Shown here: one piece after another, positions 9,941 through 53,041 of the stretch
Layout of the letters: every line of letters begins with the position of its first letter
Position numbering within the stretch: the first letter of the stretch is position 1
Source of the DNA: Chloroflexus aggregans DSM 9485
GTDB taxonomy: Bacteria > Chloroflexota > Chloroflexia > Chloroflexales > Chloroflexaceae
Direction: 5' to 3'
DNA: 64,000 bases
Assembly: GCF_000021945.1 (NCBI RefSeq)
Contig: NC_011831.1
Location: 4,477,353-4,541,352 of the forward strand
The notes under the pieces: model-generated
The model's database searches: none
Told to the model about the DNA's origin: nothing
What the model saw: the letters and a program-made list of their open reading frames with translations, nothing else
Position numbers and translations under genes: made by a program

Positions 9941-10369
9941 CTACAAACTCCAGAGAATAGCCAGAATCACTGCAATCAGACATGCCGTCCCGAACAGGAA
10001 GACGATCTGCGCTGCGCGCAGCAAGGTTGCCTTGCGTCCCTGGAGACGGCGATACTGCTGGTGCATCTCCGTCAGATTATCCTTCTGGTAGCTGATACGA
10101 CGTGGCAAGGCGACCAGCATTGCTGCGATGAGCGAGGCAAAGAATGCGCAAACGCCAGCAGTGCCTGCCCAGCGCACTACGGGGTTTTGCAGATAAGCGG
10201 GTTGATCACTCAGCGCCAGCACTGCAAAGAGCACGCCGTACAATCCCGTCACAAGTTGAATAATCGTTTGCGCGCCTGTCTCAAGGCGCTCGATATTACC
10301 GCGCTCCTGACTCTCGAACCATTCGCGCAGCTCCCGATCGTCTGGCGTTTCGGGGCCAAGAATGCGCAT
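9941..10369 (-). CDS. Small three-TM protein, last gene of the CHAT operon
   Basis: The 142-aa product has a charged N-terminal 35 residues (RELREWFESQERGNIERLE), then a TM pair near 36-55 and 68-90. A basic, coiled-coil-prone stretch (YQKDNLTEMHQQYRRLQGRK) and a third TM at 117-140 follow. Its ATG is 2 bases after the stop of the zinc-ribbon gene and its GGAG lies inside that gene, so translation is probably coupled. The layout recalls small membrane effectors of conflict systems such as SLATT proteins, but I see no diagnostic motif. A membrane-acting partner of the CHAT protein is an inference from gene order. Confidence 0.7.
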   Translation of the reverse strand: MRILGPETPDDRELREWFESQERGNIERLETGAQTIIQLVTGLYGVLFAVLALSDQPAYLQNPVVRWAGTAGVCAFFASLIAAMLVALPRRISYQKDNLTEMHQQYRRLQGRKATLLRAAQIVFLFGTACLIAVILAILWSL

Positions 10370-10371
10370 AG

Positions 10372-10572
10372 CTATTTCTCCACGCGCTTCAAAGCGATGC
10401 GCATACGCTGGGGGCAGCCGGCCGGGTTCTTGCAGCGCAGGCTGTATATCACCTCGTGCTCACCGCGGTAGATCACCTCTTTCCCGCGCTGCAGGATTTC
10501 GTCACGGGTCCAGCTATTCTTGTAGCCACACTTTAGGCAGGTGTATTGCACCGTCCGCTCGTTGTCACTCAT
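10372..10572 (-). CDS. Small zinc-ribbon protein in the CHAT operon
   Basis: This 66-aa protein has two cysteine pairs, C12-x2-C15 (CLKC) and C47-x5-C53 (CKNPAGC), spaced as in a single zinc ribbon, with a basic C-terminus (RMRIALKRVEK). Its start overlaps the end of the 1914-aa gene by 8 bases (ATGAGTGA), a classic coupling arrangement. It is followed after 2 bases by the three-TM gene. It could bind nucleic acid or a protein partner, and nothing in the sequence decides between these. Confidence 0.75.
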   Translation of the reverse strand: MSDNERTVQYTCLKCGYKNSWTRDEILQRGKEVIYRGEHEVIYSLRCKNPAGCPQRMRIALKRVEK

Positions 10573-13500
10573 CGCTGACCTCCTTCAGCAGCGCCGTCAC
10601 TAGGCTACGGTAAGGTTCATCGAGCAAGTCAGGCTCGGTGGGAGCACCCTTCAGCCAGGCGGCAAGGTGGCGCAGCGCCGCCGCTGCGGTCAGCCACGGT
10701 GAACCTGCCCTCTCGCCGGCCTCAGCTTGCGTGGCGGCATGTTCAAGGCCATCGGCAAGCCGACCCCGCTCGGCGGCGGTGATGCCCGATTGGCGGAGCA
10801 GCCGCACCCCCTGTTGCAGGAGCGGCACCACTTGGGCCAGCACGAGCAGTTCGGCCTGTTGTTCGGGCGGCAGGCGGCTCAGCATGGCCGCCAGCTCTGC
10901 GGCAGCCGCCTGCTCGTCAGGGTCTGCCGACGGAACCACAGCTTCCCCACGGATCTGCTGCTCCATCGCGGCCAGCGCCCGGGCCAGTTGCGCGGGGAGC
11001 GCCGCCCGGATCTGGGCCGCGCGCGCAGCCATCCCCGGCTCATCGCGCAGGCAGAGCTGCAACACGTGCAGAAAATCATTCGCTCCGGCGATCGGCAAGG
11101 GCCGGATCGCGCGCAAATGCGCCAGATCTGCTGCCAGTTGGTAGCGCCGATCTCGCGTGCCATCACGCATCGTCTGGACATAGAGGTTGCAGACCAGGTT
11201 GAGCAGCGCCACAAATTGTTCGTCATCGCGGCCACCGTCGCGCCATTGCGCGATGACATCAACCAGAGACACCTCCGGCATGCCACCGGCACGCCGCCGC
11301 ATCTCGTCGAGCTTCGCCCGGTCGCTGGCCAGATCGGGGTGGCTGGTGCGCTCGTCGAGGGCGACAACCTCTTCGAGTAGGGGTACGGCTGCAGCAAAGT
11401 TCCCCTGGCCGGCGTGAAAGATCGCCAGGTTGTACAGCGCGATGCGCAAGTTCACCAGGTTCTGACGATCTTCACCCGCCGCGCGGAATGCCGTCACGGC
11501 GGCTTCCCGCGCGCGCAGTTCAGTTGCACTATCATTGAGTAGATTGGCCAGGTTGCCGATTCCTACCAGCGCGTCAGCGCGTTCAGCGGCTGTACCTTGG
11601 GCAAGCAGCGGTTCGGCGGCGGTTAGCAGCCGCGCTGCGGCATCGGTCGCACCATCAATGGCCGCCAGCAGCGCGGCAGTAATAGGCGTCAGCGTTTCTT
11701 CAGTGGACAGGCGTTCCAGCTCGGCCCGCACACCGCCACCCGGCATCTGGCCGCGTTTGACCAGCACCACTGCCCCGGTGAGTGCGCCAACCAGTCTGGC
11801 GGGTGTGAACTCAGACGGTTGTAGCGTTGCCCCACCTGCCAACGCCGCTTCCATCTTCTGAATAATCTGGGCTACTTTGGCTGCATCGGGCGCCGCGCCT
11901 ATAGCCTGAAGCAGATCCAGACTCTCACGAGCATTGCTCAACGCTTGCTCATGTTCACCCCGCACAAACTGTATCTGCGCCATCATGATCAGCGTGGCGC
12001 TCTTGCCGCGCACATCGCGTAGGCGTTCCTGGATGGCGAGGGACTGCTCGTAGAGCCGCAGCGCCCCGTCGAGGTCGCCGCGCGTCACCAGCACGCCGGC
12101 CATGTTGTGGAGCGTGGCGCTCTTGCCTTGCACATCGCCCAGGCGTTCCTGGATGGCGAGGGACTGCTCGTAGAGCCGCAGCGCCCCGTCGAGGTCGCCG
12201 CGCGTCACCAGCACGCCGGCCATGTTGTGGAGCGTGGCGCTCTTGCCGCGCACATCGCGTAGGCTTTCATCCAAGGCGAGGGACTGCTCGTAGAGCCGCA
12301 GCGCCCCGTCGAGGTCGCCGCGCGTCACCAGCACGCCGGCCATGTTGTGGAGCGTGGCGCTCTTGCCGCGCACATCGCGTAGGCTTTCATCCAAGGCGAG
12401 GGACTGCTCGTAGAGCCGCAGCGCCCCGTCGAGGTCGCCGCGCGTCACCAGCACGCCGGCCATGTCGCGGAGCGTGGCGCTCTTGCCTTGCACATCGCCC
12501 AGGCGTTCCGTGATGGCGAGGGACTGCTCGTAGAGCCGCAGCGCCCCGTCGAGGTCGCCGCGCCTCACCAGCACGCCGGCCATGTTGTGGAGCGTGGCGC
12601 TCTTGCCGCGCACATCGCCCAGGCGTTCCTGGATGGCGAGGGACTGCTCGTAGAGCCGCAGCGCCCCGTCGAGGTCGCCGCGCGTCACCAGCACGCCGGC
12701 CATGTTGTGGAGCGTGGCGCTCTTGCCGCGCACATCGCCCAGGCGTTCCTTGATGGCGAGGGACTGCTCGTAGAGCCGCAGCGCCCCGTCGAGGTCGCCG
12801 CGCGTCACCAGCACGCCGGCCATTTCGTGGAGCGTGGCGCTCTTGCCTTGCACATCGCCCAGGCGTTCCGTGATGGCGAGGGACTGCTCGTAGAGCCGCA
12901 GCGCCCCGTCGAGGTCGCCGCGCGTCACCAGCACGCCGGCCATGTCGCGGAGCGTGGCGCTCTTGCCTTGCACATCGCCCAGGCGTTCCGTGATGGCGAG
13001 GGACTGCTCGTAGAGCCGCAGCGCCCCGTCGAGGTCGCCGCGCGTCACCAGCACGTTAGCCATAGCGTGGAGCGTGGCGCTCTTGCCTTGCACATCGCCC
13101 AGGCGTTCCTGGATGGCGAGGGACTGCTCGTAGAGCCGCAGCGCCCCGTCGAGGTCGCCGCGCCTCACCAGCACGTTAGCCATAGCGTGGAGCGTGGCGC
13201 TCTTGCCTTGCACATCGCCCAGGCGTTCCTGGATGGCGAGGGACTGCTCGTAGAGCCGCAGCGCCCCGTCGAGGTCGCCGCGCGTCACCAGCACGCCGGC
13301 CATGTTGTGGAGCGTGGCGCTCTTGCCTTGCACATCGCCCAGGCGTTCCTGGATGGCGAGGGACTGCTCGTAGAGCCGCAGCGCCCCGTCGAGGTCGCCG
13401 CGCGTCACCAGCACGCCGGCCATGTCGCGGAGCGTGGCGCTCTTGCCTTGCACATCGCCCAGGCGTTCCGTGATGGCGAGGGACTGCTCGTAGAGCCGCA

Positions 13501-16309
13501 GCGCCCCGTCGAGGTCGCCGCGCGTCACCAGCACGCCGGCCATTTGGTGGAGCGTGGCGCTCTTGCCTTGCACATCGCCCAGGCGTTCCGTGATGGCGAG
13601 GGACTGCTCGTAGAGCCGCAGCGCCCCGTCGAGGTCGCCGCGCGTCACCAGCACGTTAGCCATAGCGTGGAGCGTGGCGCTCTTGCCTTGCACATCGCCC
13701 AGGCGTTCCTTGATGGCGAGGGACTGCTCGTAGAGCCGCAGCGCCCCGTCGAGGTCGCCGCGCGTCACCAGCAAGTTTGCCTGCTGGTGGTACACCCGGC
13801 TCAGCAACTCTTGGTTCTCCGTTTCGCTTGCCGTTGTCTCGGCCAGCCTGATGCTCTGCTCGGCTTGTGTGGGCTGGCCCAGCCGCTCAAACACCCACGC
13901 CGCCCGCCATGCCGCCCAGCCACGCTGTTTGGGGGGGAGGTATGGGATCGCGGCGGCGATGTCGGCAAGGAAGAAGTGTGTCAGCGCCGCAACCTCGGCG
14001 TCGGCATCGATACCACTCTCGCTGCTATACGCTCGTGTGACAAGTTGATCGGCCCAGCGTGCATAGCGCGCCCGCGCCGCGCTCAGGTCCGCTCCCTGCG
14101 CCAGACGCGCCAGAACGCCGGCGATCACCGGTTGCATGCTGTAGGCGAACGCACGGTTGCGCTGCTCGTCGTAGTCCTGCCCCTGCAGCAGTGAAGCCTG
14201 GTTCAGCAACTCCAGTCGTGTGTGAGCCTGCTCGGTAAACCACCGGGTCTCGTCTTCCAGCCCCCAGATCACCGCGCCGTGCTGCGGGACGATCAGCGGG
14301 TTGGCGATAATCGTCAATGCCAGCAGATCTGCACGCAGGTCGGCGGGCAATGCGTTGAGCGAGAGCCGCACATTGATCTCGAGCGATGATTGCTGGTACA
14401 TCTGAGCCGAAGAGTCGCTTGCCTTGCTCAGTTCATCGCGCAGGTTGGTGAGGAAGGTCGCCTCGTCATCATGGCTCTTTGCCCAGCGTGCAGCGGCCAA
14501 TTCCAGGGCGAGCGGGTTGTGGCCAACGGCTGCCGCCAGTTGCTCAAGAAACGCGGTTGAAGGAACACGCTGCCCGACACGGTTGCGCAGCAGGCTCACA
14601 CTATCGCGGGGTTCCAGTCCATCAAGCTGGTGGCCCTGTTCGGCGGGTGGGTAGAAAACTTCGCCCGCCAGCCCAACCGGCGACTGGCGCGTGGTAAAGA
14701 GCAGATGCACGCCTTTATCGGCCAGCAGCCGCACCAGACGCTGCACGGCCGCCGCTTCGGCTCGCTGCCCTTCGTCGAAGGGGGCACTCCTCGGATCACT
14801 CTCTTCACGACCCAGCCGCCAGAGCACGGTCTCGTAATTGTCCCAGATCAGCAGCAGGCGCGGTCGGGAGCGTAGGGCCTCCGCTAGCACGAGCTCCTGC
14901 GCGTCAGCCGCATCGGGACGATCAAAAGCCGGATGCCGGATGCCCAGCAGATCGGCCAGACTTCTGCGCACAGTAGCCGCACGCAGCGGCACGTTTTCGC
15001 CGGGCAAGAAAAGGCTAATTGCCACGATCCCGTCGCGAAAGTGAAAGCGCAGCCGGTGGGCAAGGGCATTAACCAGAGCTGTTTTGCCCATCCCGCCCGC
15101 GCCGCGAATAGTGACGATCCTTCGCTGCTCGTTGATGAAGAGGCGTGCCAGATCCAGCAACTCCCGGTCGCGACCAACGAAACGCCCGGATGCTGGATCA
15201 GGCGCGCGTAGTTGCGCGGTGTTTGGCGCCGGTGGTTCGAGCGGGGGCAGTGGCTCGTTCAGGGCCGGGCGTTGCACCTGCCAAACATAACCCCGGGCCA
15301 GATAGAGTACCGGCACGGCCCACTCGCGCGGCTCGCTGCGCAACTGGTTCTTGAGTTGCAGGCGTGCCCGATAGAGGGCCTGGGCCGGATGCTGGCCGGC
15401 AGCCAGCCCGCGGTAGAAGGTGCGGGCGACATGGGCGGCGGCTTCGTCGAGCACCTGGTATTGCATTCCCAGCACCGCCGGGATGCCGTGACGCACCAGC
15501 GCGAGGGCGAGGTTGGCCCCCGGCTCGCGGCTGTCGGCGGTGCGGCAGGCGTTCAGGAAGGCAAAATAGGTCCCTCCACGCAGATCCGCCGCCAGATCGG
15601 CCACCGGACGCGGATCCATACAGCCGGTGCCGTCGTCGAAGCAAAGAACCGGCTTGCCGTTCTCAACGTCACCATGGCCGGTGTAGTGAAACAGGATCGG
15701 CTCCGTGGTCACAAGATCATCAATCAAGGCCTGGCGGGTAGGCGCGATGCGCTGCCAGCGGATCGGTGCAGGCGGAGTCTGGCGGGCCAGATCGTCGCGT
15801 AGCAGGTCAAGCTCCTGCACCACCTTCAGCCGCGGCAGGGGCGCATAGCCGGCGAACAAACCGGTCTCGGGGTCGCGCACTTCCTGGACCAGCGGGTCGC
15901 TGCCCATCACGACCAGGCGCCAGGGCAGGGCGGGATCGGGCGGCGCAGGGAGGGGCGCATTCGGCACTTCGCGCACAAAGAGATAGGTGAAGATCAGATA
16001 CTCATCGCCGTCGTGGAGGTACTCCCACGGAATAGCAGCCAGTTCAGGGTCATCGGTCTCAATCGCGATCAGGCTGTCGTGATGAGGGGCGCGCGGCAGC
16101 GCAGCAAGCATCACTCGCAGGGTATCGCCGCCGAGCGCGGCAAAGAGGCGCCGGCCATACGCCAGGGGATCACTCGGCACGGGGCGTTGCGAGAAGAGCG
16201 GTTGATCCACCAGGAGTGCAGCCGGCTCGAAGGAGGTGAGAGGCTGATCGTTAATCCGTGCTTCTGCTCGATCTATGGCCGTTCGCTGTAAGCAGATTGT
16301 GATCGGCAT
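10565..16309 (-). CDS. CHAT protease / NB-ARC ATPase / TPR multidomain protein
   Basis: This 1914-aa protein begins with a CHAT domain (caspase family, about residues 60-345) with both catalytic residues: His212 in HYTGHG and Cys255 in FLNACRTA. A STAND/NB-ARC ATPase follows: FVGRDREL near 377, Walker A GAGGMGKT at 403-410, Walker B RLLLIWDN at 484-491, LLFTTR near 535, and GHNPLALELAAA further on. Residues ~843-1442 are fifteen 40-aa TPR units, almost identical to one another. The last ~470 residues are helical and diverged TPR-like. The domain order suggests a self-inhibited sensor whose TPR arm binds a trigger and whose CHAT head cuts a target. It is the first gene of a three-gene operon with a zinc ribbon and a three-TM protein. 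AGAGGA precedes the ATG by about 5 bases. Confidence 0.88.
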   Translation of the reverse strand: MPITICLQRTAIDRAEARINDQPLTSFEPAALLVDQPLFSQRPVPSDPLAYGRRLFAALGGDTLRVMLAALPRAPHHDSLIAIETDDPELAAIPWEYLHDGDEYLIFTYLFVREVPNAPLPAPPDPALPWRLVVMGSDPLVQEVRDPETGLFAGYAPLPRLKVVQELDLLRDDLARQTPPAPIRWQRIAPTRQALIDDLVTTEPILFHYTGHGDVENGKPVLCFDDGTGCMDPRPVADLAADLRGGTYFAFLNACRTADSREPGANLALALVRHGIPAVLGMQYQVLDEAAAHVARTFYRGLAAGQHPAQALYRARLQLKNQLRSEPREWAVPVLYLARGYVWQVQRPALNEPLPPLEPPAPNTAQLRAPDPASGRFVGRDRELLDLARLFINEQRRIVTIRGAGGMGKTALVNALAHRLRFHFRDGIVAISLFLPGENVPLRAATVRRSLADLLGIRHPAFDRPDAADAQELVLAEALRSRPRLLLIWDNYETVLWRLGREESDPRSAPFDEGQRAEAAAVQRLVRLLADKGVHLLFTTRQSPVGLAGEVFYPPAEQGHQLDGLEPRDSVSLLRNRVGQRVPSTAFLEQLAAAVGHNPLALELAAARWAKSHDDEATFLTNLRDELSKASDSSAQMYQQSSLEINVRLSLNALPADLRADLLALTIIANPLIVPQHGAVIWGLEDETRWFTEQAHTRLELLNQASLLQGQDYDEQRNRAFAYSMQPVIAGVLARLAQGADLSAARARYARWADQLVTRAYSSESGIDADAEVAALTHFFLADIAAAIPYLPPKQRGWAAWRAAWVFERLGQPTQAEQSIRLAETTASETENQELLSRVYHQQANLLVTRGDLDGALRLYEQSLAIKERLGDVQGKSATLHAMANVLVTRGDLDGALRLYEQSLAITERLGDVQGKSATLHQMAGVLVTRGDLDGALRLYEQSLAITERLGDVQGKSATLRDMAGVLVTRGDLDGALRLYEQSLAIQERLGDVQGKSATLHNMAGVLVTRGDLDGALRLYEQSLAIQERLGDVQGKSATLHAMANVLVRRGDLDGALRLYEQSLAIQERLGDVQGKSATLHAMANVLVTRGDLDGALRLYEQSLAITERLGDVQGKSATLRDMAGVLVTRGDLDGALRLYEQSLAITERLGDVQGKSATLHEMAGVLVTRGDLDGALRLYEQSLAIKERLGDVRGKSATLHNMAGVLVTRGDLDGALRLYEQSLAIQERLGDVRGKSATLHNMAGVLVRRGDLDGALRLYEQSLAITERLGDVQGKSATLRDMAGVLVTRGDLDGALRLYEQSLALDESLRDVRGKSATLHNMAGVLVTRGDLDGALRLYEQSLALDESLRDVRGKSATLHNMAGVLVTRGDLDGALRLYEQSLAIQERLGDVQGKSATLHNMAGVLVTRGDLDGALRLYEQSLAIQERLRDVRGKSATLIMMAQIQFVRGEHEQALSNARESLDLLQAIGAAPDAAKVAQIIQKMEAALAGGATLQPSEFTPARLVGALTGAVVLVKRGQMPGGGVRAELERLSTEETLTPITAALLAAIDGATDAAARLLTAAEPLLAQGTAAERADALVGIGNLANLLNDSATELRAREAAVTAFRAAGEDRQNLVNLRIALYNLAIFHAGQGNFAAAVPLLEEVVALDERTSHPDLASDRAKLDEMRRRAGGMPEVSLVDVIAQWRDGGRDDEQFVALLNLVCNLYVQTMRDGTRDRRYQLAADLAHLRAIRPLPIAGANDFLHVLQLCLRDEPGMAARAAQIRAALPAQLARALAAMEQQIRGEAVVPSADPDEQAAAAELAAMLSRLPPEQQAELLVLAQVVPLLQQGVRLLRQSGITAAERGRLADGLEHAATQAEAGERAGSPWLTAAAALRHLAAWLKGAPTEPDLLDEPYRSLVTALLKEVSDE
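11983..13782 (-). repeat. Fifteen tandem 120-bp repeats encoding TPR units
   Basis: Fifteen consecutive 120-bp units lie in frame within the CHAT/NB-ARC/TPR gene. Most of each unit is identical at the DNA level. Differences cluster at two spots: the codon after SLAI (Lys, Thr or Gln, or the LALDES variant) and the three codons before MA (HAM, HQM, RDM, HNM, HEM). Two adjacent units at about 12241-12480 are exact duplicates. Low synonymous variation indicates recent expansion or ongoing gene conversion. Confidence 0.92.
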
Positions 16310-48913: not shown

Positions 48914-51385
48914 GTGTGCTTCGCGCGCCACCCGCTCTTTGTCATGTCTCGCTCCGCTCGACATCGTACAATGATGACCACCGGTTCGCATTATGGCGTG
49001 CGGCGTGCGCTAGATGCCAAGATTTCTCGCTCCGCTCGAAATGACACGGGGACGCTCTGCTCGAAATGACACGGGGACGCTCTGCTCGAAATGACACGGG
49101 GACGCCGGTTCGCATTATGGCGTGCGGTGTGCGCCACCCGCTCTTTGTCATGTCTCGCTCCGCTCGACATCGTACAATGATGACCACCGGTTCGCATTAT
49201 GGCGTGCGGCGTGCGCTAGATGCCAAGATTTCTCGCTCTGCTCGAAATGACACGGGGACGCTCTGCTCGAAATGACACGGGGACGCCGGTTCGCATTATG
49301 GCGTGCGGCGTGTGCCACCCCCTCTTTGTCATGTCGAGCGAAGCGAGACATCGTACAATGATGACCACCGGTTCGCATTATGGTGTGCGGCGTGCGCTAG
49401 ATGCCAAGATTTCTCGCTCTGCTCGAAATGACACGGGGACGCCGGTTCGCATTATGGCGTGCGGCGTGCGCCACCCCCTCTTTGTCATGTCGAGCGAAGC
49501 GAGACATCGTACAATGATGACCACCGGTTCGCATTATGGTGTGCGGCGTGCGCTAGATGCCAAGATTTCTCGCTCCGCTCGAAATGACACGGGGACGCTC
49601 TGCTCGAAATGACACGGGGACGCCGGTTCGCATTATGGCGTGCGGTGTGCGCCACCCCCTCTTTGTCATGTCGAGCGAAGCGAGACATCGTACAATGATG
49701 ACCACCGGTTCGTATTATGGCGTGCGGTGTGCGCCACCCCCTCTTTGTCATGTCGAGCGAAGCGAGACATCGTACAATGATGACCACCGGTTCGCATTAT
49801 GGCGTGCGGCGCGCGCCACCCCCTCTTTGTCATGTCGAGCGAAGCGAGACATCGTACAATGATGACCGCCGGTTCGCATTATGGCGTGCGGCGCGCGCTA
49901 GATGCCAAGATTTCTCGCTCCGCTCGAAATGACACGGGGACGCTCTGCTCGAAATGACACGGGGACGCCGGTTCGCATTATGGCGTGCGGCGTGCGCCAC
50001 CCCCTCTTTGTCATGTCGAGCGAAGCGAGACATCGTACAATGATGACCACCGGTTCGCATTATGGCGTGCGGCGTGCGCTAGATGCCAAGATTTCTCGCT
50101 CTGCTCGAAATGACACGGGGACGCTCCGCTCGAAATGACACGGGGACGCTCTGCTCGAAATGACACGGGGACGCTCTGCTCGAAATGACACGGGGACGCC
50201 GGTTCGCATTATGGCGTGCGGCGTGCGCCACCCCCTCTTTGTCATGTCGAGCGAAGCGAGACATCGTACAATGATGACCACCGGTTCGTATTATGGCGTG
50301 CGGCGCGCGCCACCCCCTCTTTGTCATGTCGAGCGAAGCGAGACATCGTACAATGATGACCACCGGTTCGCATTATGGCGTGCGGCGTGCGCTAGATGCC
50401 AAGATTTCTCGCTCCGCTCGAAATGACACGGGGACGCTCCGCTCGAAATGACACGGGGACGCTCTGCTCGAAATGACACGGGGACGCTCTGCTCGAAATG
50501 ACACGGGGACGCCGGTTCGCATTATGGCGTGCGGCGTGCGCCACCCCCTCTTTGTCATGTCGAGCGAAGCGAGACATCGTACAATGATGACCACCGGTTC
50601 GCATTATGGCGTGCGGCGTGCGCCACCCCCTCTTTGTCATGTCGAGCGAAGCGAGACATCGTACAATGATGACCACCGGTTCGCATTATGGCGTGCGGCG
50701 TGCGCTAGATGCCAAGATTTCTCGCTCCGCTCGAAATGACACGGGGACGCTCCGCTCGAAATGACACGGGGACGCTCTGCTCGAAATGACACGGGGACGC
50801 TCTGCTCGAAATGACACGGGGACGCCGGTTCGCATTATGGCGTGCGGCGTGCGCCACCCCCTCTTTGTCATGTCGAGCGAAGCGAGACATCGTACAATGA
50901 TGACCACCGGTTCGCATTATAGCGTGCGGCGCGCGCTGGATGCCAAGATTTCTCGCTCTGCTCGAAATGACACGGGGACGCTCTGCTCGAAATGACACGG
51001 GGACGCTCTGCTCGAAATGACACGGGGACGCCGGTTCGCATTATGGTGTGCGGCGTGCGCCACCCCCTCTTTGTCATGTCGAGCGAAGCGAGACATCGTA
51101 CAATGATGACCACCGGTTCGCATTATGGCGTGCGGCGTGCGCTAGATGCCAAGATTTCTCGCTCTGCTCGAAATGACACGGGGACGCTCTGCTCGAAATG
51201 ACACGGGGACGCTCTGCTCGAAATGACACGGGGACGCCGGTTCGCATTATGGCGTGCGGTGTGCGCCACCCCCTCTTTGTCATGTCGAGCGAAGCGAGAC
51301 ATCGTACAATGATGACCACCGGTTCGCATTATGGCGTGCGGCGTGCGCCACCCCCTCTTTGTCATGTCGAGCGAAGCGAGACATC
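48914..51385. repeat. Tandem array of short palindromic repeats (higher-order array)
   Basis: About 2.5 kb is built from three elements. A is a 25-bp unit CGCTCTGCTCGAAATGACAC plus GGGGA, in runs of one to four (about 28 copies). B is a ~85-bp unit ending in GTCATGTCGAGCGAAGCGAG plus ACATC (about 16 copies). C is a unit carrying GCTAGATGCCAAGATTTC. Their order repeats with periods of 313 bp (near 50160, 50473, 50786) and 206 bp (50786, 50992, 51198). The hairpin motif is related to the GTCATTTCGAGC-type palindrome seen in many bacterial genomes. Short open frames inside it are artefacts. The flank 48758-48913 holds no gene. Confidence 0.9.
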
Positions 51386-51631: not shown

Positions 51632-53041
51632 TCAGCCCTCTAGCAGCAACGCTTCCGGATCCTCAATCAACTCCTTCACCTTGACGAGGAAGCGCACGGC
51701 GGTGCTCCCATCGATCAGGCGATGGTCGTAACTGAGGGCAACGTACATCATCGGGCGAATAACGATTTGCCCATTAACCACGACCGGTCGCTCCTCGATC
51801 TTGTGCATGCCGAGGATCCCGACTTGCGGCGCATTGAGGATTGGCGTACTCATCAACGAGCCGTAGACGCCGCCGTTCGTGATCGTGAACGTACCACCCT
51901 GCAACTCGGCAAGGCTCAGCGTGCCCTCGCGCGCTTTCTTCGCCAATTGTGCGATCTCTCGCTCGATCTGCGCGAAGGTCTTGCGGTCGGCGTCGCGCAC
52001 CACCGGCACGACTAACCCCTCATCAACCCCAACCGCAATGCCGATGTCGTAGTAGTACTTGATCACAACCTCTTCGCCCTGAATCTCGGCGTTGACCATC
52101 GGGAAGGCTTTGAGCGCACCGACAACAGCCTTGGTGAAGAACGACATATAGCCAAGGCTAACCCCGTGCCGCTCTTTAAACGAGTCCTTGTGACGAGCAC
52201 GCAGGGCCATCACGGCACTCATATCCACCTCGTTAAAGGTGGTCAGCATCGCCGCGGTATGCTGCGCCTCAACCAAACGGCGGGCGATGGTCAAGCGCCG
52301 ACGGCTCAGACGTTGCCGCTCTTCACGTCGGTCGCCATTGGTTGTCATCACCGGTGTGGCAGGCGGGGGTGTAGGCCGTGGTGGGGTAGCCGGAGCCGGT
52401 GGCGGGGTGGTCGGAGCCGGCGGCGGCGTTGGCCGCGGTGGCGCTGTCTCGATCACCGCCGGGGTCGGATGGCTAACCTTCATCCGCGAATCGTCAGCTT
52501 TGGCGACGGCCTCACTTGGTCCCGTACCTGAAACGAGTCGCATAATGTCTTCTTTTGTTACCCGTCCGCCGGGGCCGGTTCCCTGCACGGTGCGCAAATC
52601 AATGGCATGTTCGGCAGCCATCCGCTGCGCTACCGGTGTCGCCAAGACTTCATCGGTGGCCGGCGCCGCTGCCGGTGTTGGGGCCGGGGTGGCCGGCGCC
52701 GCTGCCGGTGTTGGGGCCGGGGTGGCCGGCGCCGCTGCCGGTGTTGGGGCAGAGGTGGCTGGCGCCGCTGCCGGTGTTGGGGCCGGGGACGGCTTAGGTA
52801 GGGCACCGGCCTCAATCGTACCAAGCAGATCGCCAATCGCGACCGTAGTTCCTTCGGGGCTGGCAATACTCACCAACACCCCGCTCTGATCGGCGGCTAC
52901 CTCAAGGTTCACCTTGTCGGTCTCTAATTCAACGACCGGTTCGCCGATTGCAACCGCTTCGCCTTCACGCTTCAACCAGCGTGCGACCGTCGCCTCGACA
53001 ATCGATTCACCGAGTGACGGCACTCGAATTTCATATGCCAT
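51632..53041 (-). CDS. sucB: 2-oxoglutarate dehydrogenase E2 (dihydrolipoyl succinyltransferase)
   Basis: E2 transfers the succinyl group to CoA within the 2-oxoglutarate dehydrogenase complex. The 469-aa product has a lipoyl domain at residues 1-78, with the lipoyl Lys in [11 protein letters not shown], and an Ala/Pro linker with four copies of [10 protein letters not shown]. The E1/E3-binding domain is [22 protein letters not shown]...GRVTKEDI. A second Pro-rich linker follows, then the acyltransferase core with [19 protein letters not shown] and the catalytic [16 protein letters not shown]1 (sucA) lies 105 bases upstream on the same strand. The linker repeats are of the kind that often vary in copy number. 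Confidence 0.94.

Follow-up and report, generated by a model that had tools for sequence, protein, structure and literature searches.

According to the excerpts of PMC4986451 and PMC12222747, fungal NLRs, such as those of Podospora, carry highly conserved TPR, ANK or WD repeats, and in bacteria the STAND proteins known as WRAP contain highly repetitive beta-propellers (Dunin-Horkawicz 2014, as cited in an excerpt of PMC9218822). The window considered here, that is the whole analysed stretch of 64,000 nucleotides from Chloroflexus aggregans DSM 9485 (a genome assembled as a single contig of 4,684,931 bases), encodes a protein in which a CHAT protease and a STAND ATPase precede fifteen TPR units, next to a gene for a small membrane protein. 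The explanation that we favour, with the balance standing about even, is that of an NLR-like (STAND) receptor whose TPR sensor is diversified by repeat recombination, and which would bind in its groove and act through CHAT and the membrane protein. At the level of sequence, this explanation has established supports in the domain order, the motifs, the differences in unit number between species, the homogeneity of the array, the recurrence of its variable positions and the linkage to the membrane gene. We infer that the receptor binds a ligand, oligomerises, acts on its partner and serves in immunity or kin recognition.

The receptor gene and its membrane-protein neighbour

The features discussed below are located in the window as follows:

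10565..16309, minus strand: receptor gene, 1914 aa, with CHAT protease, STAND (NACHT/NB-ARC-like) ATPase, TPR array and helical tail
15305..16159, minus strand: CHAT protease domain, residues 51-335, with the GHG His and NACR Cys motifs; Pfam CHAT
14585..15184, minus strand: STAND ATPase core, residues about 376-575, with the P-loop GAGGMGKT and the DNYE Walker B; Pfam NACHT
12011..13810, minus strand: TPR array, fifteen 40-residue units, residues 834-1433
10565..12010, minus strand: C-terminal helical tail, residues 1434-1914 plus the stop codon, conserved in relatives (76% identity with genome G042)
9941..10369, minus strand: small 142-aa membrane protein with three hydrophobic segments, encoded 195 bp beyond the downstream end of the receptor gene

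As in STAND/NLR-like receptors, the effector (CHAT) is followed by the NTPase (NACHT/NB-ARC) and then by the repeat sensor (TPR). In the Pfam search, CHAT was found with E 8.2e-25 and 88.2 bits (cut-off 24), NACHT with 33.1 bits (cut-off 26.7, AAA_16 and NB-ARC lying narrowly below their own cut-offs) and TPR_12 with 360.9 bits (cut-off 30.1), a helix pair recurring every 40 residues in the model of the array. The P-loop and the DNYE Walker B are kept in all eight aligned receptor rows, as is the CHAT Cys, while the CHAT His is present in seven of the eight and missing from G015; we take the GHG and NACR motifs to be the His/Cys dyad of the CHAT domain. Foldseek matches to a model of residues 1-870, itself of moderate confidence (pLDDT 71.7, pTM 0.48), include Apaf-1, plant NLRs, the STAND-TPR protein 6mfv and SAVED-CHAT 8tl0. 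No PADLOC defence model fits the whole receptor, the matches being limited to TPR and a partial SAVED_CHAT. Matches to PPR, SnoaL_2 and dCache_1_like in Pfam, and to Ycf3, the NsdA family and PPR in NCBIfam, were judged repeat-driven and discarded. The first 833 residues find some match, mostly partial, in 57 of 61 genomes (the own genome and 60 others), and a relative at an identity of at least 53% occurs in 12 of the 60, those of G001 and G018 being in pieces.

The membrane protein matches no Pfam family at its cut-off, and its three hydrophobic segments recur in 11 of 11 aligned relatives. It does match PADLOC C3a152, a model labelled type III-C specific, at 1e-52. Two candidate identities were rejected. 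Bacterial gasdermin homologues are about 260 aa long; the protein has 142 aa with three hydrophobic segments, and no gasdermin family appears among its Pfam matches up to E 10. The Pycsar effector PycTM scores 13.2 bits against a curated cut-off of 27.2, with a PADLOC E of 0.0032.

Matches to the membrane gene occur in 16 of the 61 genomes, at 23 places, and linkage was counted over the 21 places with E <= 5.3e-11 (the remaining two are the weakest, at about 2e-4). At 16 of the 21 a receptor relative adjoins on the same strand, a number that rises to 18 when two TPR reading frames cut by a contig end (G008 and contig C126 of G025) are included. The relative lies within 1 kb at 13 of the 16, one being the broken paralog of the own genome; for three of these 13, in G025 (contig C68) and G026, the CHAT-STAND part alone was checked. 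At two more of the 16 the contig is interrupted within the array (G025, contig C40, and G032). At the last of the 16, in G018, the receptor is broken and the membrane gene stands behind it, at a distance of 3.6 kb from the N part and of 0.55 kb from what is left of the tail, and in G053 it lies upstream of the receptor instead of downstream. As for the remaining places, one membrane gene is at a contig end (G015, contig C133), and two have no receptor nearby, namely G054 and one of the two G003 copies (G003:4940975). Both neighbours of the latter (L115:6976-7395) match the neighbours of the G006 receptor and no part of a receptor was found there, so that the presence of the membrane gene by itself is evidently tolerated. 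This linkage is newly described here; that the membrane protein serves as effector or substrate of the receptor is a suggestion to which we give slightly less than an even chance. The broken paralog (L083, G000:C1:1059000-1067500) has three near-identical TPR units of its own as well as a membrane gene.

Several observations bear on the history of the pair. Four members of the genus were tested for aconitase and show 96% identity, against 81% in G036 and G010 and 66% in G042; the N part of the receptor is 85% identical in G036, 82% in G042, 77% in G010 and G001, 74% in G004 and 58% in G006. In the receptor tree, in which support is strong for three of the 11 inner branches, G042 and G036 are joined (100/99), and the window groups with these two, G010, G025 and G032 (94/98), apart from its congeners. 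Horizontal transfer is likely. Both genes also occur on L095, a contig of a Chromatiaceae MAG that may be contamination (receptor 65%, membrane gene 59%). The G001 receptor lies in the same neighbourhood as that of the window, the genes downstream of the membrane gene being common to both and an acetyltransferase gene standing on the other side. It is split by a stretch (L080:6542-8710) read as TnpB-like and recombinase-like genes, which resembles a mobile element. A DUF2515 gene near the window receptor is present in three of seven genomes.

Probable turnover of the TPR units

A sequence-only reading of this locus had described fifteen near-identical 120-bp TPR units with variation confined to two spots, and had judged them to fit ongoing unequal recombination or gene conversion. 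The units themselves are borne out: Tandem Repeats Finder reports, at 11991-13773, a period of 120 with 14.9 copies, 95% matches, 0% indels and a score of 3104, and the codon register gives 15 units of 120 bp, covering residues 834-1433 from window position 13810 down to 12011 on the minus strand. Unit 1 is diverged in its first half, which leaves 14 near-identical inner units with a mean nucleotide identity of 94.1%, and the array lies beyond the threshold used for NLR repeats of high internal conservation (more than 85% identity over at least 100 residues). Other tandem repeats of the window comprise a 33-base unit in 4.1 copies at 52655-52788, within reading frame 51632-53041, and nested repeats with units of 25, 82, 181, 206 and 313 bases at 49028-51348, behind the aconitase gene.

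As to the variation, two clusters are indeed recognisable, one at unit positions 8-16 and the other at 33-38, continuing into the first position of the following unit, but the residue varies at nine of the 40 positions among the inner units (1, 8, 9, 12, 16, 33, 34, 36 and 38) and not at two sites only; at codons 11 and 37 the variation is silent. The alternatives named earlier (K/T/Q, and HA, HQ, RD, HN and HE) are all present, but G/N at 12, T/R at 16, Q/R at 1 and the block 33-38 had been overlooked. Their occurrence in different combinations is confirmed: the 14 inner units include 12 distinct ones, and the four-gamete test fails for 52 of the 153 pairings of variable sites, so the unit states have been recombined or recurrently mutated.

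The number of units, counted by sequence pattern, differs widely between relatives. Among single-contig assemblies it is 15 in the window, 11 in G006, 10 in G042 and four in G003, where the gene is a distant relative (36% identity); in draft assemblies, whose counts may be collapsed, it is three in G010, two in G036 and in G015, and one in G040, G001 and L095. In G004, G025 and G032 the receptor sequence is cut off within the array by the end of the contig, and in G027 just short of the array. The comparisons left out G050, where five units matched, and G053, where none did, though its translation shows a diverged TPR array. Window and G042 share 82% (N) and 76% (C) protein identity in the flanks, yet unit number and order differ. 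According to an excerpt of PMC12222747, the arrays of het-d and het-e are rebuilt by long reads and not by Illumina reads. An assembly artefact in the window array is unlikely, because the genome is one contig and the single-contig genomes G042 and G006 have long arrays of their own. With one genome per species compared, both number and order are seen to differ between species; the same number and order throughout, which would have refuted the earlier reading, is contradicted at that level only.

Within arrays, the mean nucleotide identity of inner units is 0.941 (window), 0.957 (G042) and 0.936 (G006), and between them it is 0.913 (window/G042), 0.821 (window/G006) and 0.807 (G042/G006). Fixed nucleotide differences number 11 for window/G006 and 14 for G042/G006; there are only two for window/G042, and homogenisation per species is therefore weakly shown for that pair.

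Silent sites add a further signature. GC at fourfold sites is 0.974 in the window array against 0.763 in its flanks, and exceeds the flanks in 10 of 10 arrays, although 115 of 781 flank windows are equally high for the two-unit array of G036. Allowing for amino-acid make-up leaves the excess in place (expected 0.760 and observed 0.974 in the window array; above expectation in 10 of 10). Silent divergence between window and G042 is 7% in the units and 41% in the flanks, and in each of the seven pairs compared the units have the lower value. One unit offers only about 22 such sites; of the 20-site windows in the flanks, those as low as the units number 0/613, 11/629, 27/663, 2/470, 52/463, 2/335 and 1/331 in the seven pairs. 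GC-biased gene conversion is the simplest account of the high silent-site GC and the slow divergence, with codon selection or exchange between species as possible alternatives. Exchange of units across species is a possible sole cause of the low divergence, but this occurs in all seven pairs, and biased conversion or codon constraint explains it at least as well.

Differences in unit number and order between species, homogeneity within arrays, four-gamete failures and raised silent-site GC together uphold the proposal of recombination or gene conversion, and that the turnover of units is driven by recombination is very probable. Judged from one genome per species, it may also be ongoing.

Variable residues and competing explanations

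The unit aligns in register with a consensus TPR protein and without gaps with LGN, so that the unit position equals the TPR position plus 3. Unit positions 8, 9, 12, 15 and 16 thereby correspond to TPR 5, 6, 9, 12 and 13 in helix A, and 33-38 to TPR 30-35. In the TPR domains of HOP, as given in an excerpt of PMC1261162, ligand contacts are made at TPR 2, 5, 6, 9, 12 and 13, while 33 and 34 are exposed on the concave face; for LGN, excerpts report that the Asn of the Leu-Gly-Asn triplet (TPR 9) bonds the ligand backbone (PMC3438535) and that helix A faces inward (PMC6525239). Five of these eight published concave or contact positions are among the nine variable positions of the window (P 0.008), and six of the eight vary in the union of three arrays (P 0.008); taken singly, the arrays of G042 (P 0.08) and G006 (P 0.18) show no significant enrichment. 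The earlier suggestion that the variable residues contact a ligand therefore agrees with the helix-A cluster, which coincides with published contacts, and only in part with the second cluster, from which the published concave set includes TPR 33 alone, the highly variable unit position 34 lying outside it. Groove facing is here read from published TPR numbering. LGN (6hc2, 3sf4) is also the best solved-structure match of the array model, whose pTM of 0.56 (pLDDT 89.9) leaves the pitch of the superhelix unsure.

According to the mechanism we propose, the array would form the sensor arm, the inner groove of its superhelix binding a protein or peptide. Binding would release the STAND ATPase, which would then oligomerise and switch on the CHAT protease, and the active protease would act on, or jointly with, the adjoining three-helix membrane protein, with membrane damage or a cell-death signal as the outcome. 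Through unequal recombination and gene conversion the array would gain, lose and reshuffle its 120-bp units whilst their backbone is kept alike, selection would hold unit positions 8, 9, 12, 15 and 16, together with 33-36 and 1, variable, and arm length and groove chemistry could thus change with the fold intact.

The same array could also arise by neutral turnover, in which units are homogenised, the variable residues are merely tolerant of change and array length has no adaptive meaning; we consider this unlikely, though a serious alternative. Within arrays pN/pS is 1.55 (window), 1.15 (G042) and 0.97 (G006), near 1 in two of the three; between arrays it is 0.32 (window/G006), 0.47 (G042/G006) and 1.08 (window/G042), and the McDonald-Kreitman-type contrast is clear for the first of these pairs (P 0.006) and weak for the other two (0.057 and 0.40, in the same order). 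G001 and L095, moreover, have a single unit in a gene that is otherwise similar (broken in G001). Against neutrality, the same variable positions recur in the three long arrays of window, G042 and G006 (overlap P 0.0005 for window/G006, 0.016 for window/G042 and 0.0095 for G042/G006), the four that vary in all three (9, 12, 33 and 34) including the position equivalent to the backbone-binding TPR 9; as the units share ancestry, these P values and those for selection are guides and not proofs. Helix-B positions 24, 25 and 28, furthermore, differ between species and are nearly fixed within arrays (FST 1.00, 1.00 and 0.87), while 9 and 34 do the reverse (FST 0.14 and 0.18; 0.44 at 12 and 0.13 at 33). 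Pooled FST is 0.35 for the published concave set against 0.53 for other variable positions, a contrast kept modest by the membership of position 34 in the latter group; over seven silent codons it is 0.82, but three of these, codons 11, 35 and 37, also have lower values (0.52, 0.07 and 0.15), which counts against the explanation that we favour. Judged from these sequence comparisons, selection for residue diversity in the array is likely, and its action on groove residues in particular is moderately probable.

A different reading concerns the role, with the TPR arm sensing a protein or metabolite from inside the cell while the protease and its membrane neighbour take part in routine signalling, in the manner of MalT and other STAND-TPR proteins. 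The PADLOC result for the entire receptor and the receptor-free persistence of the membrane gene in two places speak for it, but a patchy distribution, a gene tree in conflict with relatedness, broken copies and the C3a152 match of the membrane protein speak against it, and we regard it as improbable, giving a role in defence or kin recognition a little better than even chances. Retroelement-driven hypermutation (DGR) of the sensor has a precedent in other multicellular bacteria, where DGRs diversify STAND-linked sensors (excerpt of PMC10907252), and many variable codons of the array hold A in one state. Several changes, however, are not at A, a search of the genome for a reverse transcriptase (RVT_1) gave no match although controls did match, and no template repeat was found in the genome, all 15 matches of the unit (E <= 0.001) lying inside the array. 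A DGR target was therefore rejected for this genome, and the chance that one is at work is close to nil.

Comparison with described receptors

In the open-licence literature, in so far as its excerpts extend, no account was found of bacterial CHAT-STAND proteins with arrays of near-identical TPRs, nor of the receptor/membrane pair. The caspase-like CHAT protease under sensor control that is proposed for the receptor is shared with SAVED-CHAT (8tl0) and with TPR-CHAT/Craspase, but in the present receptor CHAT stands on the N-terminal side of a STAND ATPase that carries a TPR arm itself, and no SAVED domain or Cas partner was seen with the receptor. The TPR domain of LGN/Pins (6hc2, 3sf4) resembles the array in its 40-residue TPRs and gap-free alignment, and its groove binds long peptides; it differs in being part of a eukaryotic adaptor with eight diverged repeats, about 21% identity and no protease. 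WRAP proteins, in the excerpt cited above, likewise combine recently amplified near-identical sensor repeats with bacterial STAND proteins and show broken copies, although their repeats form WD40 propellers and those of the receptor an open TPR superhelix. The DGR-diversified STAND sensors (excerpt of PMC10907252) also join a variable putative sensor to a STAND ATPase in multicellular bacteria, but the targets there are C-type lectins, whereas here they are TPRs, with no reverse transcriptase or template found.

The closest parallel is with the fungal NLRs, which have in common with the receptor a STAND domain joined to near-identical sensor repeats, differences in repeat number and concerted evolution. 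Their variable sites lie on the concave face of the TPRs, and the helix-A cluster of the receptor falls at published contact positions. The receptor differs in being bacterial, in having a CHAT protease as effector and a linked membrane gene, and in that the differences were seen between species. A bolder version, which we find conceivable and hold less firmly than the general explanation given at the outset, would make the two genes a mobile immune or kin-recognition cassette of Chloroflexales, with a CHAT-STAND-TPR receptor and an undescribed three-helix membrane effector, its sensor rewritten by recombination and GC-biased conversion, as a bacterial counterpart of fungal het-type NLRs without a retroelement. 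If the interpretation is true, the regime of fungal NLRs, i.e. concerted evolution together with variable ligand-facing residues, would operate also in bacteria, there with a caspase-like protease in the effector role and a membrane partner linked to it. The locus would then offer a model for a bacterial receptor that changes specificity without a reverse transcriptase, its relatives providing sensors of different lengths on one scaffold.
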